This document shows, piece after piece, positions 626 through 38,188 of a stretch of 54,869 nt of DNA; within the stretch, counting starts at the first letter, position 1; each line of letters begins with the position of its first letter. The notes under the pieces were generated by a model. It was not told the origin of the DNA. It saw nothing but the letters and a program-made list of their open reading frames with translations, and made no database searches. A program made the position numbers and the translations under genes. The DNA is from an uncultured marine group III euryarchaeote. GTDB lineage: Archaea > Thermoplasmatota > Poseidoniia > MGIII > CG-Epi1. The stretch is from the NCBI GenBank assembly GCA_902531985.1, contig CACAGG010000003.1:1-54869 (forward strand), given 5' to 3'.

Positions 626-3600
626 ATGGAAGGTTCAAGTTCTCAAAAGCGAACGCCAAACACAGGCAACTATGATCCTGTTTCTTTGGAGACGGAAGTA
701 GCTGAGAGATGGAATAAAGAGAAAACATTTGAGAACAGTATAGAGCAGCGTAGAAATTCAGATCCTTTTACTTTTTTGGAAGGCCCGCCAACGGCTAATG
801 GAAAGCCTGGAATTCATCATGTCTTATCGAGATTGTACAAAGATATGGTTTGTAGATGGAAAACCATGGAGGGTCATTTAGTAGAGAGAAAAGGTGGCTG
901 GGATACTCACGGTTTACCTGTCGAAATTGAAGTTCAAAAACAATTGAATCTAATGTCTAATGAAGAGATAGAGGCTTATGGAATGGAAGCCTTTAATCAA
1001 AAATGTAAGGAAAGTGTTTGGACATACGAAGAAGCTTGGAGAGAAATGAGTGAGCGAATGGCTTTCTGGGTTGATATGGATAATCCATATGTTACATTAC
1101 ATGATGAATACATAGAATCTGCCTGGTGGTCACTTAAGCAAATGCACGATAAAGGCCTTCTTTTTAGAGGTCACAAGGTTTTACCTTATTGTCCACAAAC
1201 AGGTACAAGTTATTCTTCGCATGAGGTTTCATTAGGATATAAAGAAGTAGCAGAACCTGCAGTTTACGTAAAATTCAAATTAGTTGACGATGACGCTTCG
1301 ATACTTGCATGGACTACAACGCCTTGGACTCTTCCAGGTAACGTAGGTCTTGCAGTTGGACCTGATGTAACTTATTGTAGAGTTCGAATAACTGAATCAC
1401 CTTCAGCAAACTGGGAAGGTCGAGGTGGTTCTGAGGTTGGAGAAGAATTAATTTTAGCTAAAGATTTGATGTCTGATGTATTACGTCACCAAGTTGAAAT
1501 GATTGAAGAATTTCCAGGTTCAAGTATAGTTGGTAAAGCTTACCAGCCATTATTTCCTGGAGCAATAGAAAGAGGCGATTCAGATACGGCCTGGACAGTT
1601 GTTCCTGCAGATTTTGTTACGACAACAGATGGTACTGGTGTAGTTCATACAGCTGTGATGTATGGTGAGGATGATTACGCTCTAGGAATGGAAGTTGGTT
1701 TTCCAGCTCAGCATACAGTAGGTATGGATGGTAAATTTATTGCAGGTACTCACAAATCATTAGATGGTCGTTACGTTAAGGACTGCGATTCAGAAATCAT
1801 TGATCTTTTAGAATCCGATAGTCAGCTTTATCGAGAGCATATTTACACACACGATTATCCACATTGTTGGAGAACAGATCATCCTTTGCTTTACTATGCT
1901 ATGGATAGTTGGTTTGTTCGTATGACTGCTGTAAAAGATAAAATCATACAATTCAATTCAGAAGTCGAATGGGCTCCTGAATGGACCGGAACTGGGAGAG
2001 TTGGTGAATGGTTAAGAAACATCAAAGATTGGGCCATCAGTAGAGAAAGATATTGGGGAACTCCTATTCCCGTTTGGATTTGTGAAAAATGTGGACATGA
2101 GCATTGCATTGGTAGTATAGAAGAAATGAATTCTTTAAAAACAAATGATTCACCATCTCCAAAAGAATTGCACAGGCCTTATGTTGATGATGTTAAACTT
2201 CATTGTTCTAGTGAAAAATGTGATGGTTTAATGGTTAGAGAGCCATACGTTATGGATTGTTGGTTTGACTCAGGTTGTGCATCGTTTGCACAATGGCACT
2301 ATCCTTTTGAAAATGAAGATAAATTCAAGGGTAGTTTTCCTGTAGATTACATATGTGAAGCAGTAGACCAAACACGTGGATGGTTCTATTCACTTCTTGC
2401 AGTTTCAACAACTGTATTTGACAGCATTTGTTACAATAGATGTCTTTCCTTGGGCCATATTTTAGATAGCGAAGGAAAGAAAATGAGTAAATCTAAAGGG
2501 AATGTAGTAAATCCATGGGATCATTTCAATAAAGAGGGAACAGACGCCATTCGATGGTACATGACTACTCAAAGTGCACCTTGGAATCCGATGAATTTTG
2601 ATCCTAATGGTGTAAGAGAAACATATGCAAAGATGTTTCTTACTTTATGGAATGTACATCGTTTTCACGCAGACTATGCGGCATTAGACAATTTTGACCC
2701 CAATGATGAATCAACTTTTGTTCCAGTTGATAATAGAACTCCTTTAGATCAATGGATACTTTCTAGGATTACAACAGTTGCTCAAGATTATCATAATCAA
2801 TTCGTGTCATGGGAATTTCACAAGGCAGGAAGAGATTTGGAAAATTTTGTAATTAATGATCTTTCAAATTGGTACGTTAGACGTTCACGTCGTAGATTGT
2901 GGGATGAAGCCGATAGTAATGACAAAAGTGCATGCCAACATACATTGTATGAGGTTTTATGCATTGTAAGTAAACTTATGGCACCAGTTTCTCCATTTAT
3001 GTCTGATAGAATACACCATGATTTAACTGGTAAGTCAGTTCATATGGCCGATTGGCCGTTGGGATCTGCATTAGTTGAAAGGCATCTTCCTCCACAAAAT
3101 CTAGATTTAGAACAAAAAATGGCTTTAGTTCGCACACTCACAGAAACAGGCCGTAGAATCCGTGTTGATTCAGATAGACGTCAAAGATTGCCTTGTAAAT
3201 CTGGTTGGATTGTTGGCGGGACAAATTTGTCAGAATTTCACACAATTATTGCTGAAGAATTAAACGTAGAAAATTTAGAAACTGAGAATAATCTTGATAG
3301 ATTCCAACGTGTAGAAGTAGTCCCAAATCACAAAGTATTAGGTAAAAAATGTAGGGCAGATTTACCTAAAGTTCTTTCAGAATTAGCTGAAATAGCTTCA
3401 GAATCTTTGTTGTCACAGATAGATAACAATGAAGCAAAATTAGCGGGTTATGAAATTACAATGGAAGATGTAATTTTACGTCGTATTGAAAAAGAAGGTT
3501 TTGCCGCGTCTACATTCGCAGATGAAAAATTAGGAGATATTTCTTTAGTTCTAGATATGGAGATTACAGACGATTTATTATCTAAAGGTTTAGCTAGAGA

Positions 3601-3841
3601 AATAACCAGAAGAGTTCAATCCAAACGTAAAGATTTGGATCTTGAGTTAGAAGATACAATTACTCTCAATGTTTGGCTTTCAGAAAATAGTCCAAAATTA
3701 AATACGCCCGATTGGGATTATATTAAATTTGAGACAAGAGCTAGTAATGCAGACTTACAATATGCAGAACCATCCGGCAAATCAGATAATTTTGAAGTAG
3801 ATGGGATGAAAATAAGTTTTCATTTAGAAAAAAATAGTTAA
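626..3841 (+). CDS. ileS: Isoleucyl-tRNA synthetase (ORF opens at GTG 590; ATG 626 preferred start)
   Basis: Class I aaRS motifs: GPPTANGKPGIHH (HIGH) and KMSKSKGN; IleRS-type editing and anticodon-binding regions. Confidence 0.95.
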   Translation: MEGSSSQKRTPNTGNYDPVSLETEVAERWNKEKTFENSIEQRRNSDPFTFLEGPPTANGKPGIHHVLSRLYKDMVCRWKTMEGHLVERKGGWDTHGLPVEIEVQKQLNLMSNEEIEAYGMEAFNQKCKESVWTYEEAWREMSERMAFWVDMDNPYVTLHDEYIESAWWSLKQMHDKGLLFRGHKVLPYCPQTGTSYSSHEVSLGYKEVAEPAVYVKFKLVDDDASILAWTTTPWTLPGNVGLAVGPDVTYCRVRITESPSANWEGRGGSEVGEELILAKDLMSDVLRHQVEMIEEFPGSSIVGKAYQPLFPGAIERGDSDTAWTVVPADFVTTTDGTGVVHTAVMYGEDDYALGMEVGFPAQHTVGMDGKFIAGTHKSLDGRYVKDCDSEIIDLLESDSQLYREHIYTHDYPHCWRTDHPLLYYAMDSWFVRMTAVKDKIIQFNSEVEWAPEWTGTGRVGEWLRNIKDWAISRERYWGTPIPVWICEKCGHEHCIGSIEEMNSLKTNDSPSPKELHRPYVDDVKLHCSSEKCDGLMVREPYVMDCWFDSGCASFAQWHYPFENEDKFKGSFPVDYICEAVDQTRGWFYSLLAVSTTVFDSICYNRCLSLGHILDSEGKKMSKSKGNVVNPWDHFNKEGTDAIRWYMTTQSAPWNPMNFDPNGVRETYAKMFLTLWNVHRFHADYAALDNFDPNDESTFVPVDNRTPLDQWILSRITTVAQDYHNQFVSWEFHKAGRDLENFVINDLSNWYVRRSRRRLWDEADSNDKSACQHTLYEVLCIVSKLMAPVSPFMSDRIHHDLTGKSVHMADWPLGSALVERHLPPQNLDLEQKMALVRTLTETGRRIRVDSDRRQRLPCKSGWIVGGTNLSEFHTIIAEELNVENLETENNLDRFQRVEVVPNHKVLGKKCRADLPKVLSELAEIASESLLSQIDNNEAKLAGYEITMEDVILRRIEKEGFAASTFADEKLGDISLVLDMEITDDLLSKGLAREITRRVQSKRKDLDLELEDTITLNVWLSENSPKLNTPDWDYIKFETRASNADLQYAEPSGKSDNFEVDGMKISFHLEKNS

Positions 3842-3843
3842 TT

Positions 3844-5385
3844 TTATTTTACTACTTTAAATCCAGGTTTCTTTTTTTCTACAGGCTTAAATTTCTTAGG
3901 TTTATCTCCGACAGCCTTGAACTGCGCAGGTTTTTTCTTTTCTTCAAATGAAGGTATGTCTTTAGACATTTCAAAGGTAGGGGCACTACTGATTCCGGAT
4001 GTTTCTCCCCCCATCACCTTTACACCTCCAGAGCCACTTCCTAAAGATAAAGAACCAATACTGCCCGAACTAGTACCTAACATGCTATCAGCATCTAATT
4101 CGTTTAGCTCCATTGAACCTTTATTTTGGGTAGCTTTTGTTTCCGAGGATGGTGTAAATTGAGGTTTTTTATCTACTCCAGCTTCATTCATTTCTCTTAT
4201 AGCTTCTGCAGCAGCATCTTTCACTTCTTTCGAACCATCACTTGTCAGAATAAGTGCTTGGTCCATGACTTCAGGCGGCATTTCCCAAGAAACGCCTTTT
4301 GCTATAGATGCTAGTGCAGTAATTGCAGTTGCTCTAATACGTGATTCTTTGTTTGAAGTTTCTTTCATTACCATTTCAATTAATTTGGTAAATTCTTCAT
4401 ATTTTAGATTACTAACTTCACTCCAGAATTTTTTTACAGCAAATAAATCAGCTTTCAATATAGGCCTCATATATTTTTTCAAGTTTATTTTACCGCCAAC
4501 AGCTTTGAACTTTTTAGGTCCTTTTACTGCCTTCCTTATTATTTTTCTAGTAGGCCTGTTTCCTTTTCGTACGACGGTTTTTTTACCTGATAATTCTCGA
4601 ACTTTGAATATTCTACTATTTGGCCTTCCTGAATTCTTAGGAGTTAATTTTCCTCCTTTTCTTTTAGCAGCAATATCAGATCCACTTTCAACTTCCAGTC
4701 CTACAGGGGGTGCAAACAAATCGTCATTATCATTAGCAATTGGTTTTGGTTCAGGAACTTTTTTTGCAGGTTCTTCAAATGTAACAACTGAGCTAAAAAT
4801 ATCTTCTAAGAAATCTTCAGGTGACATATTTGTATTGCCGTTGTTAAGTTCATTTTGCAAGAATTCTTCTCCGATTGACACAACAAACATGAATTTGTGT
4901 ATGTCAAGGTAATTAGCCATAAAATCAGATATAGATGTGAAGGTACCAACCGGTGTTCTTTCCATTCCTTGTATAAGAATAACGAGTGGTTTCTTTTGAA
5001 GGCTGATAGACGCCAGCTTTTTCATCGATGAGTCAAATTGATGAATCAGTTCCACTCTATTTTCATTTGTTAAATGTGTACTTATTGTTGCAGGGGCAGT
5101 TTCGTTGATTAATTTTACAAGGTCTGCAGTAGCTCCGCTTGTATCTGTGTTCGATTTCAATTCAGTAATTATTTGTTGTACTAAAGGTTGTGATAAATCA
5201 GTCTCAGAAAGATAACGTCTTGCATTAAAATCAATAACACTTAATCCTGCACCATAGAGGTCACTTTCTAAATCAGACATTGCCGATTTTCTTTCTCCAA
5301 GAGATCCTCCATATAGGGCAACTAATGAAGGTGGATTTGCACTTCCAACCAGTTTTATTATTTTTGCAGTAGCCGCAGTCGTCAT
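3844..5385 (-). CDS. Degenerate KAP/AAA-like P-loop domain + basic linker + HEAT-like repeats + FKxV tail; function unknown
   Basis: N-term LVALYGGSLGERKS (degenerate Walker A), VIDFNARRYLSETDLSQPLVQQIITEL (KAP-like), LVILIQGMER (Walker-B position); C-term alpha-helical repeats RIRATAITALASIAKG / KEVKDAAAEAIREMNE. Confidence 0.5.
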   Translation of the reverse strand: MTTAATAKIIKLVGSANPPSLVALYGGSLGERKSAMSDLESDLYGAGLSVIDFNARRYLSETDLSQPLVQQIITELKSNTDTSGATADLVKLINETAPATISTHLTNENRVELIHQFDSSMKKLASISLQKKPLVILIQGMERTPVGTFTSISDFMANYLDIHKFMFVVSIGEEFLQNELNNGNTNMSPEDFLEDIFSSVVTFEEPAKKVPEPKPIANDNDDLFAPPVGLEVESGSDIAAKRKGGKLTPKNSGRPNSRIFKVRELSGKKTVVRKGNRPTRKIIRKAVKGPKKFKAVGGKINLKKYMRPILKADLFAVKKFWSEVSNLKYEEFTKLIEMVMKETSNKESRIRATAITALASIAKGVSWEMPPEVMDQALILTSDGSKEVKDAAAEAIREMNEAGVDKKPQFTPSSETKATQNKGSMELNELDADSMLGTSSGSIGSLSLGSGSGGVKVMGGETSGISSAPTFEMSKDIPSFEEKKKPAQFKAVGDKPKKFKPVEKKKPGFKVVK

Positions 5386-32392: not shown

Positions 32393-32950
32393 ATGCAAGT
32401 AAAAGTTAATCCTGGCGAAATGATCACGCCAGCTCTGTTGACTTATTTAATTTTATTAGTTGTAGTGTGGTATTTTTGGCCTGAGAATGTAGAAACTAAT
32501 CCTGCAGAGATTATAATTTTCTCAGTAGGTGTTTTTGTTGGGGCGGCGTTAGTTCATGCTTTTTATTATTTGAGTTTTGACGAAAAACAAGAAGAAGTTG
32601 ATGAGTTCTTGACTAAATCAGAGATAGATATCAATCAAAAAAAGTCTGAATTGAAATTGCACATAGGTCATGTAAAAGACAGAGAAGAGTTTTTGCTAGA
32701 AGCAATTGATAGATTAAATACAGAATCTAATGAGTACACCCCCAGTCCCGAACCTGAAGAAGTGAAAGAACCAGAAGAGGAGCCTGAAGAAGTGAAAGAA
32801 CCAGAAGAGGAGCCTGAAGAAGTGAAAGAATCAGAAGAGGAAGTTGATTACAAATTAATGACAGTAGCTCAACTTAAGGAAATTTTAAAGGAAAAAGGAA
32901 TGTCGACATCTGGTAAGAAGACTGAGCTAGTTTCTAGACTGAAAAAATAG
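32393..32950 (+). CDS. Membrane-anchored protein with acidic repeats and C-terminal SAP domain
   Basis: Two N-term TM helices, (EEPEEVKEPE) repeats, SAP motif YKLMTVAQLKEILKEKGMSTSGKKTELVSRLKK. Confidence 0.75.
   Translation: MQVKVNPGEMITPALLTYLILLVVVWYFWPENVETNPAEIIIFSVGVFVGAALVHAFYYLSFDEKQEEVDEFLTKSEIDINQKKSELKLHIGHVKDREEFLLEAIDRLNTESNEYTPSPEPEEVKEPEEEPEEVKEPEEEPEEVKESEEEVDYKLMTVAQLKEILKEKGMSTSGKKTELVSRLKK
32753..32842 (+). repeat. 30-bp coding tandem repeat x3
   Basis: cctgaagaagtgaaagaaccagaagaggag repeated, third copy with one or two changes. Confidence 0.9.
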
Positions 32951-33088: not shown

Positions 33089-33463
33089 TTATTTCAATCT
33101 CATTGAAGCTGAATTAATACAGTACCTTAATCCAGTTGGTTCAGGCCCATCATCGAACAAATGTCCTAGGTGAGAGTCGCATTTTGAGCATACAACCTCA
33201 ATTCTTTTCATTCCAAACGAAACATCTTCCTTTTCACCAATTATTGTGTCATTTGCAGGTTTGTAAAAGCTAGGCCATCCAGTTCCAGAGTCAAATTTGT
33301 GTTCAGATTCAAATAATACTTCATCGCAACAGACACAATGATATTTTCCGCTATCTTTACAATCCCAATATTCGTTATCGAACGGAGGCTCAGTAGCACT
33401 ACATCTACAAACTTGATATTGTTCTGGCGTTAACTTGTCCTTCCATTCATCTTCGCTCATCAA
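33089..33463 (-). CDS. msrB: Peptide-methionine (R)-S-oxide reductase
   Basis: [45 protein letters not shown]. Confidence 0.96.
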
Positions 33464-33516: not shown

Positions 33517-33762
33517 ATGTCTGAAATTAATGGAATTGTGGAAGCATCTTGTGGTCAATGTCTATTTGATATGAAAGAGAAGGAAGGCTGTGATCTAGCC
33601 ATTCGGATTGACGGTAAACCTTACTTTGTGGATGGTGCACACATAGACGATTTTGGTGATGCTCACGCAGAAGATGGTTTTTGTTCAACAATTCGTAAGG
33701 CTGAAGTGGAAGGTGAGTTGAAAAATTCTACATTCTACACAAAATCATTCAAGATAATATAA
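33517..33762 (+). CDS. DUF6370-like small protein
   Basis: GIVEASCGQCLFDMKEKEGCDLAIRIDGKPYFVDGAHIDDFGDAHAEDGFCSTIRKAEVEGEL. Confidence 0.7.
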   Translation: MSEINGIVEASCGQCLFDMKEKEGCDLAIRIDGKPYFVDGAHIDDFGDAHAEDGFCSTIRKAEVEGELKNSTFYTKSFKII

Positions 33763-33772
33763 AGTTAAAGAA

Positions 33773-34465
33773 TTATTTTCCTAATATTTCCTTCTTCATC
33801 TGCTTGAACTCGTCGTCTTCAATATGGCCTTTCTCTTTCATTTCAGTCAGTTTTTCTAATCTGGCGAATCTGTCATCTCCACCAGTTCCAATATTAGAAC
33901 GATTGATTACACTGTCCTTAACAATAGTATCACGGTCATCGACGTAGTCTCCGTGAACTACAGTTTGGTCCACTCTTTTCTGGTCAAGAATCTTTTGCCT
34001 TAGTCTTTTGGCATCCTCTAATTTTCCAAATTTTTCGTAAGCAGCTATTGCTGAGTTATAGTCTAATCTTTCTTCTAATATCTCACCTTGTCGAGATTTA
34101 ATCAATTTGGTTAATTTTTTATAAGGACTTCTTGCGGTTTCAGAGTGCAATACAATTTGGTTCACTCCTACTGCGTTTGGTGGTTTTTGCCCTTCAGATA
34201 AATAGACTAACTGCTCATTCACAGCTTTTGTTATCGGCCCAAAAAAGATCCCTCCATCTTCTATGACTTCGTCTATATCCATTTTATCTAATCCGAGTGT
34301 GCCTATGTCATATGTATACGTTCCTTCTCTTGGCGCGATTAGATGTCGCTTTTCTAATTTAGAATTATCTAATTTTGGTACTATCACTCTAATAATAGTG
34401 TCGTAGATCTCTATTATTTCATATTCTTCGCACTTAAATCTTTCTAGGGGTTTGTTTTCTACCAC
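33773..34465 (-). CDS. Array paralog E: unique N-term + TPR-like hairpin + shared 'KDSVxNRSxIG'/SHOCT-like C-terminal module
   Basis: AIAAYEKFGKLEDAKRLRQKILDQKRVDQTVVHGDYVDDRDTIVKDSVINRSNIGTGGDDRFARLEKLTEMKEKGHIEDDEFKQMKKEILGK. Confidence 0.8.
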   Translation of the reverse strand: MVENKPLERFKCEEYEIIEIYDTIIRVIVPKLDNSKLEKRHLIAPREGTYTYDIGTLGLDKMDIDEVIEDGGIFFGPITKAVNEQLVYLSEGQKPPNAVGVNQIVLHSETARSPYKKLTKLIKSRQGEILEERLDYNSAIAAYEKFGKLEDAKRLRQKILDQKRVDQTVVHGDYVDDRDTIVKDSVINRSNIGTGGDDRFARLEKLTEMKEKGHIEDDEFKQMKKEILGK

Positions 34466-34571
34466 GATACAGATTAATGAGATGTATTTAAATTATTAAT
34501 TTTAAACTGCAATGTCTAAATAATCACCAGGTGCATTGGTAAAATTTTGGTCTAATCCCGGAAGTATTCAT

Positions 34572-35078
34572 TTATCCAATAATCTCCTTCTTTATTTTTT
34601 CAAATTCTTCATCACTAATAAGTCCTTCAGCAAGCATTTCTTTGAGTTCTTTGAGTTTTGTAAATTTATCTTCTCCACCAGAGCCAATATTTGATTTGTT
34701 GACTACGCTGTCTTTAATTTCAGTTTTGGTAACTTCGTCACCGTGGACCACTTTCTGAGAAACTTTTACTCGCTTCTCAGCCAATAATTTATTGTTTATT
34801 CTTTCAATGTCTTCGTGATACAGATTGTTTTCTATGGGCTTAAACTCTTTGTATAACCTATCAGCTTCTCTGTAATTCTCTAATGCTTGATTGTAATCAT
34901 TTAAGTCTTCAGATATTCTTCCATCCTCGTATGCAGTCTTCGCCATTCCTTCTAAGTCTGGCCAAATTTCTTCAGAAATAGTTGATAACCCAAAACCTAT
35001 AAGAATCATTAACCCAAAGATTACTAATAGAAGAAATCCCATTACAATCAGAAACACTATTACGCCACTAGCAGTCAT
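34572..35078 (-). CDS. Array paralog D: TM N-term + shared C-terminal module
   Basis: MTASGVIVFLIVMGFLLLVIFGLMILIGF...VVHGDEVTKTEIKDSVVNKSNIGSGGEDKFTKLKELKEMLAEGLISDEEFEKIKKEIIG. Confidence 0.8.
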   Translation of the reverse strand: MTASGVIVFLIVMGFLLLVIFGLMILIGFGLSTISEEIWPDLEGMAKTAYEDGRISEDLNDYNQALENYREADRLYKEFKPIENNLYHEDIERINNKLLAEKRVKVSQKVVHGDEVTKTEIKDSVVNKSNIGSGGEDKFTKLKELKEMLAEGLISDEEFEKIKKEIIG

Positions 35079-35698
35079 TTCCCCAGAATCTCCTTCTTCA
35101 TCTGCTTGAACTCGTTGTCGTCAATAAGACCTTCTTTTTTCATTTCAGTCAGTTTTTCTAATCTAGCGAATTTGTCATTTCCACCAGAGCCTATCGTTGA
35201 GCGATTTAATATGCTATCTTTGATGACTGTATCGCGGTCATCTACATAGTCACCTTTAATGTAATTTCCTTTGACAACAGTTTGTTGTTTTGATAATTTT
35301 TCATAGTTTACTTTTGCCCTCATTACTAGGCTTTCTACCTCACTCCATTTCCTTTTGTTTCTGAATGCATCATCGCTTTTAAAGTAAATTATATGATTAT
35401 GATTATATTTTTCATTTTTACCGAATTGTATGTGACCATGTGAATTACCAAAAAAGCTAAACGATGGTTTAAGATGACTTATTGAAATATTATCAAAGCT
35501 TATGTGGGCTTTGTATCCATTGCCGTGTTGACCAAACTGCGGCATAGGCCAAGATTCAGTCCAACCAAATCGTTTAATTTCTATTTCGATATGATCTTCA
35601 AATATAGTTAGTGTATCTCCTCTTTCGTTTGTAAATTCATATAATAGGTACCCTTTATCGGTGTCAGCTTGTTTCTGTAAAAAATCGTCAAAACTCAT
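35075..35698 (-). CDS. Array paralog C: beta-rich N-term + shared C-terminal module
   Basis: YLLYEFTNERGDTLTIFEDHIEIEIKRFG...VVKGNYIKGDYVDDRDTVIKDSILNRSTIGSGGNDKFARLEKLTEMKKEGLIDDNEFKQMKKEILGK. Confidence 0.8.
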   Translation of the reverse strand: MSFDDFLQKQADTDKGYLLYEFTNERGDTLTIFEDHIEIEIKRFGWTESWPMPQFGQHGNGYKAHISFDNISISHLKPSFSFFGNSHGHIQFGKNEKYNHNHIIYFKSDDAFRNKRKWSEVESLVMRAKVNYEKLSKQQTVVKGNYIKGDYVDDRDTVIKDSILNRSTIGSGGNDKFARLEKLTEMKKEGLIDDNEFKQMKKEILGK

Positions 35699-36369
35699 TT
35701 GCCCAGAATCTCCTTCTTCATCTGCTTGAACTCTTCGTCGTCAATCAGGCCTTCTGCAAGCATTTCTTTCAGTTCCTTCAATTTTGTAAATTTGTCGTCG
35801 CCACCAGAGCCAATACTAGATTTACTGACGACGCTATCTTTGATTTCGGTTTTGGTGACTTGGTCTCCGTGGACAACTGTTTGATCCACTTTTTTCAGAT
35901 CTGTAACAATTTTTCTCACTCGCGCAGCTTCCTCTGGTTTACCCATCTTATCATAAATTTCTATAGCTCGTTTATAGTCAAGATGTTCTTCACACTGTTT
36001 TGCTTTTTGTATGCGGGCCTTTGGTAAAAGGTCCTCTAAATGAGCTTGTGCTTCTTTTATTGACTTACTCCCCATTAATATGAAACTTGTGTACGTTCCA
36101 TCATCATCTAATGCATCAAAGCTAGGGCACTCCAAGTGTTTATTGAAAGTAAATGAATCTATATTTCCCAAAGAGACTATCAGTGACTTCTCTTTTGCTT
36201 CGAAAATAATCCGTTGATTTGTAATGTAAAGCGAACCTGGTTTATATTTGTCACGAGGTTTTCCTTCAATAATCAGAGGTTTACACAAAACGGTATGTCC
36301 TGAAAAAAAACCTGATTTATTATGTTTTACAAATATTACGTGTTCCCCTGTATGTAGATCAGTTTTCAT
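35695..36369 (-). CDS. Array paralog B: GRAM/PH-like N-term + TPR-like hairpin + shared C-terminal module
   Basis: GSLYITNQRIIFEAKEKSLIVSLGNIDSFTF (PH/GRAM-like) ...VVHGDQVTKTEIKDSVVSKSSIGSGGDDKFTKLKELKEMLAEGLIDDEEFKQMKKEILGK. Confidence 0.8.
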   Translation of the reverse strand: MKTDLHTGEHVIFVKHNKSGFFSGHTVLCKPLIIEGKPRDKYKPGSLYITNQRIIFEAKEKSLIVSLGNIDSFTFNKHLECPSFDALDDDGTYTSFILMGSKSIKEAQAHLEDLLPKARIQKAKQCEEHLDYKRAIEIYDKMGKPEEAARVRKIVTDLKKVDQTVVHGDQVTKTEIKDSVVSKSSIGSGGDDKFTKLKELKEMLAEGLIDDEEFKQMKKEILGK

Positions 36370-36941
36370 TTCCCTAGAATCTCCTTCTTCATCTTTTCAT
36401 AGTCATCTTCATTGATTAATCCTTCATCGAGCAGGGATTTCGCCTCGCGTAATTCTTCAGCCTTAGATGATTTTCCGCCAATATTGGAACGATTGAGAAC
36501 ACTGTCTTTGATTTCTGTTTTGGTTATTTGGTCTCCTTGAATTACGGTTTGATCTACTTTCTTCTGATCAATTATTATTTGTCGGATTCTTTTTGCTTCT
36601 TCATGATTGTTCATATATTCCCATAATTGGATTGCTTCATCGAATCGAAGTAAGTTTTCAAGTTCTTTGGCTTTTATTTCTCGGAGTCGGTTTCCCTCTT
36701 CATCAATTATTTCTTTAGCTTTGATTCTGTAGTTCTTTATGTCTGAGATTGTTTTTTCATCCATTCCATATGTATGGTGTTTTAGTATTTTTATTGCTTC
36801 TTCAATTTTATCCAAGTCATGAGAATCAATATATGTTTTCGCTTTTTCCAGCGAATCATCCCAATATTTCCGGAATTTTTTGATTGCCTCCTCGTTGTCA
36901 TCCTGAACTTTAGATGATTTAGAGTTTCCGAACCAGCCCAT
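36366..36941 (-). CDS. Array paralog A: helical N-term + TPR-like hairpin + shared C-terminal module
   Basis: FDEAIQLWEYMNNHEEAKRIRQIIIDQKKVDQTVIQGDQITKTEIKDSVLNRSNIGGKSSKAEELREAKSLLDEGLINEDDYEKMKKEILGK. Confidence 0.8.
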   Translation of the reverse strand: MGWFGNSKSSKVQDDNEEAIKKFRKYWDDSLEKAKTYIDSHDLDKIEEAIKILKHHTYGMDEKTISDIKNYRIKAKEIIDEEGNRLREIKAKELENLLRFDEAIQLWEYMNNHEEAKRIRQIIIDQKKVDQTVIQGDQITKTEIKDSVLNRSNIGGKSSKAEELREAKSLLDEGLINEDDYEKMKKEILGK

Positions 36942-36967
36942 TATTTCCCCAGAATCTCCTTCTTCAT
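36941..36967 (-). repeat. Orphan copy of the array 3' tail (mini-ORF MKKEILGK*) overlapping the start codon of paralog A
   Basis: Minus strand ATGAAGAAGGAGATTCTGGGGAAATAATGG; encodes exactly the terminal octapeptide of paralogs A, B, C and E, stop TAA overlaps ATG of 36941. Confidence 0.85.
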
Positions 36968-37000
36968 AAAATATTTACTGCACAGCAATAATTATTTCAA

Positions 37001-38188
37001 TCATATTATTCCAGCAGATTTGCCGCCTTTCTCAAATGCATTCAGTGCATGATCTAAATCTTCTTTTTCTAATCCAGCACTCATCATTACCCTAATTCTT
37101 GATTTATCTGGAGCAACCATTGGGAAAACAATTGGTAATGCAAATACATCCATATCCAGTAATTTTGCACTTAATTCTTTAGCTTTGTGTGATTCTCCAC
37201 ACATTACTGGAATAATTGGAGTTTCAGATACTCCTGTATCGAATCCCATAGATTGAACTTCTTTTCTGAAATATTCTGTATTAGACCATAATTTCTCGAC
37301 GTGCTCAGGTTCGCTTTCCAATACTTCTATCGAAGCTTTACAAGCTGCAATAGTAGCAGGAGGTGCTGAACCAGATAGTAACATTGTTCTTGATTTATTG
37401 AAAGCGTAGTCTACCATGTGCTTTTCACCAGCAACAAGGCCACCTACGACTCCAAATGCTTTGGAGAAAGATCCCGATTCCATATCTACTTCATCCTCAA
37501 CGCCAAAGTGAGCTCCAATTCCTCTTCCACCAGCCAAAACACCTTCACCATGGCAGTCATCAATGTAGGTCATAGCACCATACTCTCTAGCTAATTTTGT
37601 TATTTCATCAAGTGGTGCAATATCTCCATCCATAGAGAATACTCCATCGCTAATTACTAGAGTTTTTTCACTTTTCTTTGTGGCTTCCTTTAACCTATCT
37701 TCTAATTCACCCATATCATTGTGAGCATAGATTGTTCGATTTTCTTTTCTCACACCAGATAACCTCACTCCGTCAATGATTGATCCATGATTTAGCTGAT
37801 CAGAAATAATAGAATCATTTTTCCCTGCTAATTGAGGAATCAGCCCTGAATTAACTGCAAATCCTGTTTGATAATACAATGCAGCTTCCCGATTTTTAAA
37901 TCTAGCAATTGTATCTTCAAGTTCATTGTGAATGTCCATGTTACCAGCAATAGGTCTAACACTTCCACTTCCCGCTCCGTGTGATTTTACAGCATCAATA
38001 GCTGCCTGTTTGACTTTAGGATGATTACTCATGCTGAGATAATTATTTGCACAAAGCATGATTCGTTCTTTGTCATCAATAATAGCTCTACCAGTTGATG
38101 GCCCGCCTATTACGGGAGGTTTCCAATCAAAACCTTTCTTAACTAATTCGTCATATTCACTTTTCATCCAGTCTGTCGGGCTACTCAT
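37001..38188 (-). CDS. kbl: 2-amino-3-ketobutyrate CoA ligase (glycine C-acetyltransferase)
   Basis: LCANNYLSMSNHPKV, HGAGSGSVRPIAGN, DGVFSMDGDIAPLDEI, GSFSKAFGVVGG. Confidence 0.92.
   Translation of the reverse strand: MSSPTDWMKSEYDELVKKGFDWKPPVIGGPSTGRAIIDDKERIMLCANNYLSMSNHPKVKQAAIDAVKSHGAGSGSVRPIAGNMDIHNELEDTIARFKNREAALYYQTGFAVNSGLIPQLAGKNDSIISDQLNHGSIIDGVRLSGVRKENRTIYAHNDMGELEDRLKEATKKSEKTLVISDGVFSMDGDIAPLDEITKLAREYGAMTYIDDCHGEGVLAGGRGIGAHFGVEDEVDMESGSFSKAFGVVGGLVAGEKHMVDYAFNKSRTMLLSGSAPPATIAACKASIEVLESEPEHVEKLWSNTEYFRKEVQSMGFDTGVSETPIIPVMCGESHKAKELSAKLLDMDVFALPIVFPMVAPDKSRIRVMMSAGLEKEDLDHALNAFEKGGKSAGII

Follow-up and report, generated by a model that had tools for sequence, protein, structure and literature searches.

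Four kinds of described system come closest to the locus analyzed here, a tandem array of five genes with unlike heads and one common tail in an uncultured Marine Group III (MGIII) euryarchaeote. The locus lies on contig CACAGG010000003.1 of assembly GCA_902531985.1, and positions 1 to 54,869 of the contig were analyzed ('the window'). Integron cassette arrays, including those of archaeal integrons (PMC9668308, the text of which mentions neither Poseidoniia nor Marine Group archaea), resemble it in having tandem one-gene cassettes, repeated junctions, and a fixed slot with variable content. Acinetobacter plasmid dif (pdif) modules resemble it in having genes that lie between short recombination sites and are shuffled as modules. 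Anti-defence genes of archaeal viruses (PMC11065993), in which conserved upstream DNA precedes unrelated small genes, resemble a second MGIII population described below. SHOCT proteins (PF09851), including bacterial bPH+SHOCT proteins, resemble it in carrying a short two-helix C-terminal domain on many unrelated heads, and a sixth paralog of the array genes has a bPH_3 head; SHOCT is frequent on oligomeric membrane proteins, and initial experiments reported by the authors who defined it gave no support to a role in oligomerization (PMC3581485). The results below indicate, with moderate confidence, that mobile one-gene cassettes with coding junctions make up the MGIII locus, as an array inserted between kbl and msrB.

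The window belongs to a 0.97-Mb genome, 75% complete (G000), that shares its genus with G006 (single-cell genome AG-343-N02) and G008 (AH-321-L02); these genomes and G017 (CG-Bathy1) are all MGIII euryarchaeotes. The array comprises five minus-strand open reading frames (ORFs; 33773-36941; Table 1), transcribed in the order A-B-C-D-E, with 4-nt overlaps (ATGA) at A/B, B/C, and C/D and a 106-nt gap between D and E. All five end in a single tail of ~68 aa, and within G000 tail similarity has E-values of 1e-19 to 1e-38, far above chance; coordinates and tail similarity thus bear out the original prediction of five genes with different heads and one tail. In the first half of the tail lies the motif VVxGDxVxxxxxIKDSVxNRSxIG, for which Pfam has no match. 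The second half, predicted to be SHOCT-like, is a real SHOCT domain in A (27.1 bits), B (34.3 bits), and D (34.1 bits), which pass the PF09851 cut-off of 27 bits, and scores slightly under that cut-off in C (24.3 bits) and E (22.3 bits). The tail thereby matches a described family, but one with no established function (PMC3581485).

Comparison of the kbl-msrB region among relatives indicates that the array is an accessory insertion. In G001, G002, G003, and G009, kbl either abuts msrB or overlaps it, and in G013 and G015 the two are separated by a gap of a few bases; that is, the slot is empty. In G000 and G008, tail genes lie between kbl and msrB, and the left leader behind kbl and the right flank are alike. 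The cargo of the slot is A-B-C-D-E in G000 and three genes in G008, with D as the sole common gene. The assembly of G006 is fragmented, with a tail gene that joins msrB via ATGA on one contig and a promoter-like stretch and a new gene after kbl on another, an arrangement that agrees with tail genes in the kbl-msrB slot. The first gene of the G008 array begins with the first ~27 nt of msrB, which, judged by sequence, is the scar of a former tail-then-msrB state still present in G006. A further trace of rearrangement, absent from the original prediction, is the 57-nt 3'-end relic of the genome's own xer-like gene (34502-34558), which is followed by an AT-rich promoter-like stretch and then by gene E. 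Because this xer 3' end and promoter-like stretch stand between D and E, E was probably copied from a slot behind xer, a slot that holds other tail genes in G000 and G006.

The array genes are joined by a repeated piece of DNA. A 25-nt block, ATGAAGAAGGAGATTCTGGGGAAAT on the coding strand, is present in six copies in the window, corresponding to five tail ends and one copy preceding A. At the end of one gene the block codes KKEILGK, and it also holds the start codon of the next: A to D each begin right behind a block, with GGAG, a putative ribosome-binding site, ~11 nt before the start codon, an arrangement that may couple translation of successive genes. The array had been predicted to extend to 36967; the genes stop at 36941, and 36943-36967 is the sixth block copy, which lies outside the tail genes. 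Free-standing or out-of-frame block copies are found in G008, G019, and G011, the last of which lacks tail genes. In G019, a 45-nt tail relic is fused out of frame to a membrane ORF and adjoins a tRNA gene; the decayed tail end (CAG to TAG) is at G019:C66:3191-3222.

Conservation of the block extends to the level of codons. In the terminal block, same-residue pairs of genes from the genus use the same codon at a frequency of 0.70, vs. 0.56 expected from codon usage, a value higher than the maximum of 300 simulations (67%); in SHOCT helix 1, the corresponding values are 0.48 and 0.46. The fixed codons are rare in this AT-rich genome (AAG, 100% vs. 26% usage; CAG, 100% vs. 22%), and the same codons occur in the GC-rich genus. 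The fixation of rare codons, and their occurrence also in the GC-rich genus, indicate that protein-level selection alone is insufficient. A ribosome-binding site as the only cause was rejected, because the fixed codons begin 25-30 nt upstream of GGAG and persist where there is no downstream gene.

The sequences of heads and tails bear marks of exchange. Between G000 and G008, the DNA identity of D is 94-100% for most of the head, 44% in SHOCT helix 1, and 88-100% at the end, a pattern that, from the alignment, is a tract swap inside the tail. A head common to G006 and G021, two genomes of different genera, has 93-97% DNA identity in long stretches, vs. 64% identity for the xer genes and 38-47% for the tails of the same two genomes. 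Two motif types occur in combination with all major SHOCT types, and the G016 tail gene has 42% GC in a locus of 65% GC. From the D tract swap, the G006/G021 head, the motif-SHOCT combinations, and the G016 GC contrast, we conclude that there has been horizontal transfer, including transfer across genera, and recombination of heads and tails.

The full tail is present in 7 of 23 MGIII-family genomes, distributed over three genera (G000, G006, and G008; G016, G018, and G021; G017). It is missing from 13 of the 16 genomes of the window genus, and an absence of the array from close relatives, which had been named as counting against the original prediction, was thus found in part. Tail genes also form arrays in G008 and G006:C43, and other copies stand alone. 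The other 324 Poseidoniia genomes contain no full tail, with weak SHOCT-only matches in 3, and a 393-genome sample of the phylum contains none, with one further SHOCT-only match. A viral origin was rejected, since the tail has no relative in 2.9 million viral contigs by a search sensitive to close relatives only. At G006:C43, a four-gene tail array is followed by two tail-less genes (3359-4857 of the stretch inspected), one of 330 aa, the product of which looked by eye like an SPFH protein, an assignment with support from neither Pfam nor the PDB. DUAL01000266.1, a 2.1-kb contig filed under a Flavobacteriales metagenome-assembled genome (MAG), holds an array of tail genes of the MGIII type; the contig has 34% GC, its title gives a coverage near zero, and it is probably misbinned.

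Tracing the sequence common to the regions upstream of three tail genes leads to a second population of cassettes in MGIII (Table 1). The 5' boundary, ending in CCACCAAAGAACAAAACAACCACAGTATTAAATTAAACAAAGGCGTCAGG, occurs at 16 places in 11 of the 23 MGIII genomes, and the 3' boundary, AAGCCGGATGAGGAAGCCTGA, which in frame would read KPDEEA and a stop, at 27 places in 15 of the 23; reversed control patterns have zero matches. The ORFs between the boundaries are small, unrelated, and mostly those of membrane proteins, and one orthologous slot, flanked by a 104-aa gene and a redoxin gene, contains a different ORF in nearly every congener. Tandem cassettes of this population meet at a joint ending in GCCTGAAGTCTTAAATTAAACAAAGGCGTYAGG, and the junction contains an imperfect dyad, CCTGAAGTCTT..AAGGCGTCAGG. 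The boundary has no Rfam match, and the idea that it is a known RNA element was rejected.

The two populations meet at several loci. G006:C5 has a tail-gene cassette, bearing boundary repeats, exactly before a 91-aa cassette, and the latter is present alone at the orthologous place in G004; a tail gene can thus be single-cassette cargo outside the array. In G017, a tail gene carries the 3' boundary of the second population. In G011, the 3' boundary is followed by the KKEILGK block, and this arrangement links the two types of junction. Another family of the class also has the 5' boundary as an exact 28-nt copy (G244:C27; 102-kb contig, 49% GC; 3182-3300 of the stretch inspected), together with a ~23-aa ORF, MWSAISEVLNLIFALFRGKRK, identical to that of G000:C50, which suggests either cross-family transfer or contamination.

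Table 1. Positions of the array genes, junction blocks, slot edges, and second-population loci (window coordinates unless a genome and contig are given)
Feature	Position	Strand	Remarks
Gene A	36366-36941	-	helical head (weak DUF4363 likeness), helical hairpin; tail ~36369-36569
Gene B	35695-36369	-	PH/GRAM-like head, helical hairpin; tail ~35698-35901
Gene C	35075-35698	-	beta-rich head; tail ~35078-35287
Gene D	34572-35078	-	hydrophobic N-terminal segment (likely transmembrane anchor), helices; tail ~34575-34775
Gene E	33773-34465	-	head without family match, helical hairpin; tail ~33776-33985
Junction block, copy six	36943-36967	-	not within a tail gene; mini-ORF MKKEILGK and stop, 8 codons, meets A start codon (TAATG)
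Junction block A/B	36368-36392	-	tail A end, putative ribosome-binding site, B start
Junction block B/C	35697-35721	-	repeat copy
Junction block C/D	35077-35101	-	repeat copy
Junction block, D end	34571-34595	-	diverged, 76%
Junction block, E end	33775-33799	-	80%; final copy of array
xer-like tyrosine-recombinase 3'-end relic	34502-34558	-	57 nt, GLDQNFTNAPGDYLDIAV and stop; between D and E
kbl (glycine C-acetyltransferase-like)	37001-38188	-	left edge of slot
msrB (SelR)	33089-33463	-	right edge of slot
DUF6370 gene	33517-33762	+	between array and msrB in G000 and G008
Second-population loci	G011:C39, G006:C5, G004:C10, G008:C11, G011:C42, G014:C2, G000:C1, G000:C50		boundary DNA round small ORFs

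The small DUF6370 protein beside the array scores 114 bits to its family, and the plus strand at 32393-32950 codes a 185-aa protein that has a hydrophobic segment at its N-terminus, acidic repeats, and, at its C-terminus, a SAP domain (PF02037, 1.2e-12).

According to the mechanism that we propose, each cassette would consist of a head and the common tail, and each tail gene would close with a repeated DNA junction of ~25-45 bp that has a double role: it would code the C-terminus KKEILGK and supply the following gene with a putative ribosome-binding site and a start codon. Any cassette could then follow any other, with serial and presumably coupled translation. Recombination at and within the repeats would add, remove, and swap cassettes and would mix heads with tails; cassettes would move by recombination at junction repeats, through either a site-specific enzyme or short-homology recombination. 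The slot, the repeats, the codon-level conservation, the swaps, the cross-genus transfer, and the occurrence of tail genes as single-cassette cargo elsewhere are established by comparison of the sequences; the reading of the locus as an array of mobile cassettes goes a step further and is the one we judge probable. The broader proposal that MGIII has an undescribed cassette system unrelated to integrons, in which genes are gained, lost, and shuffled at fixed slots via coding junction repeats and in which arrays would be a form of domain shuffling that gives each cell its own set of heads on a constant tail, is tentative, and we hold it with less than even confidence. The open-licence papers searched describe no such cassette system, and searches of libraries and papers brought up no system with such an architecture, as had been predicted. 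The original observation was right and understated.

Several points weigh against a mobile-cassette array. No recombinase, transposase, or circular intermediate is tied to cassette movement. The xer-like gene is a single-copy gene found mostly in MGIII, in genomes with and without tail genes, and it adjoins tail genes in G000 and G006 only. Folded as single-stranded DNA, the five junctions have z values of -0.76 to +0.77 relative to shuffles, with no attC-type fold, and the interval 33700-37100 contains no inverted repeats of at least 20 nt. The tails, at ~200 nt, are sufficient for plain homologous recombination. The relatives are mostly draft MAGs or single-cell genomes in which certain contigs terminate at junction repeats, and small G016 contigs resemble contaminants or chimeras. 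Sequence identity between these small G016 contigs and other genomes was not used, on account of possible contamination.

Three known types of mobile element were considered for the array and rejected. An integron is excluded because IntI was not found in G000 (a genome 75% complete) and because the junctions lack attC-like folding; the tyrosine recombinase beside the sixth paralog (G000:C7:2199-2921, outside the window array and directly behind the recombinase gene) scores 64.6 bits against the integron integrase model, the cut-off of which is 265. A transposon or insertion sequence is rejected because the array has no inverted repeats and, by Pfam scan, none of its genes codes a transposase. 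A common 3' flank, adjoining tRNA genes, is shared by the tail genes of G016 and G018 (both beside tRNA-Ser) and the tail relic of G019; a tRNA-targeted element is rejected because the window array is not beside a tRNA gene.

One alternative concerns the mover: a site-specific recombinase, perhaps the host Xer-like enzyme, would move cassettes at dif-like sites. The precise boundaries of ~25-48 bp, the xer relic in the array, the position of tail genes directly after xer in G000 and G006, and the imperfect dyad of the second-population junction are in its favor. Against this, junction folding is no better than that of shuffles, the KKEILGK block has no dyad, the only imperfect dyad being that of the second population, and the Xer-like protein, although XerC, XerD, and XerA models outscore the integron integrase model on it, falls below all curated cut-offs. 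We consider this alternative somewhat unlikely. Because of the xer relic, the xer neighbourhood, and the imperfect dyad, an Xer-like recombinase is a lead, and only a lead; the mover may also be short-homology or ordinary homologous recombination.

According to a second alternative, the array is an ordinary tandem family: copies arose from one ancestral SHOCT gene by duplication, their heads drifted apart or were exchanged through fusion, and the tails are homogenized by gene conversion, with no movement of cassettes. Tails of ~200 nt do recombine by tracts, and SHOCT is common at the C-terminus on many heads (PMC3581485). However, the heads (transmembrane, PH, HEAT, and coil) are not diverged forms of each other, block copies occur outside tail genes, and synonymous codons are fixed in the terminal block only and not across the tail. 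In addition, the slot is empty or otherwise filled in congeners, and tail genes occur at several other loci with boundary repeats of their own. On balance, a tandem family without cassette movement is unlikely.

A third alternative assigns a role in defence or anti-defence to the tail genes and the other small cassette genes, which would be cargo traded between cells and viruses and kept diverse by an arms race. The genes are accessory and patchy, with fast turnover and cross-genus horizontal transfer, and in archaeal viruses a conserved sequence upstream of dissimilar small genes is also a hallmark of anti-defence genes (PMC11065993). One HEAT-headed relative has weak matches to candidate defence families, but these involve HEAT-repeat models only; the tail has weak matches to the phage families phrog_2700 and phrog_888, but these are confined to the SHOCT region. 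The five window proteins match no PADLOC models, and the viral contigs, searched for close relatives only, contain no tail. A role as defence cargo is improbable.

The heads themselves are diverse. Among relatives, head types include transmembrane segments, PH-like domains, HEAT repeats, and repeated hairpins. The sixth paralog has a clear bPH_3 head (2.5e-9; 37.9 bits vs. a cut-off of 23), whereas the head of B, predicted to be PH/GRAM-like, is only weakly so by itself (bPH_3, 0.012, 16.5 bits, under the cut-off; Vps36, 0.009; GRAM, 0.02); domain searches assign no family to the heads of C and E. The helical hairpin predicted in A, B, and E is supported by alignment and, in B, also by an AlphaFold2 model (17-sequence alignment; mean predicted local distance difference test score, pLDDT, 60), of which it is the best part (pLDDT >90). 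In the same model, SHOCT forms helices 191-205 and 211-222 (pLDDT ~85), with the conserved G207 in the loop between them, and the motif preceding SHOCT is disordered in the monomer (pLDDT <50). The AlphaFold2 model of C, from a single sequence, has a mean pLDDT of 41. The two models are confident for hairpin and SHOCT only; a PDB fold search with the models found nothing below E 0.001, the head model of B being unusable and too uncertain for such a search. Designed armadillo proteins, retrieved by a PDB sequence search with the tail profile, were judged to be spurious low-complexity matches.

That the five proteins form one complex, with the tail as a common assembly interface, is quite improbable: the genes overlap tightly, the tail is common to all, and SHOCT is often found on oligomeric membrane proteins, but the gene content of the slot differs between G000 and G008, several members stand alone, the initial experiments of the SHOCT-defining study reportedly gave no support to oligomerization (PMC3581485), and the motif before SHOCT is disordered in the monomer. 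The predicted co-assembly of subunits is likewise not supported, because the partners in a fixed complex should stay together, yet array content varies (G008 shares D only) and lone copies occur elsewhere. A constant tail with exchangeable heads would fit a docking tail better than a fixed five-subunit complex; the heads (PH-like, transmembrane, HEAT, and coiled) may place or bind different things, and the constant tail of hairpin, motif, and SHOCT may dock them all to one common partner.

If the locus is a mobile-cassette array, a recombination junction, a protein C-terminus, and the next translation start would be one short piece of DNA, and archaea would have a route to modular protein diversity through it. 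MGIII, which has no cultured member, would have a recognizable engine driving its gene turnover, and its accessory genes, most of which code small membrane proteins, could be found by means of the two boundary repeats. The array would also be a natural experiment on the widespread SHOCT domain, with a single tail and many heads.

Set against the systems with which it shares features, the MGIII array differs from each. Unlike integrons, it has no IntI and no attC-like fold, and its junction codes a C-terminus and starts the next gene. Whereas pdif modules are bounded by XerC/XerD sites (28 bp, 11-6-11), MGIII has an imperfect dyad in the second population only. In contrast to the genes of archaeal viruses (PMC11065993), MGIII cassettes have boundaries conserved on both sides and are chromosomal, lying between housekeeping genes. 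Compared with other SHOCT proteins, those of MGIII carry an MGIII-specific motif and a hairpin before SHOCT, and a coding DNA repeat links their genes into arrays.

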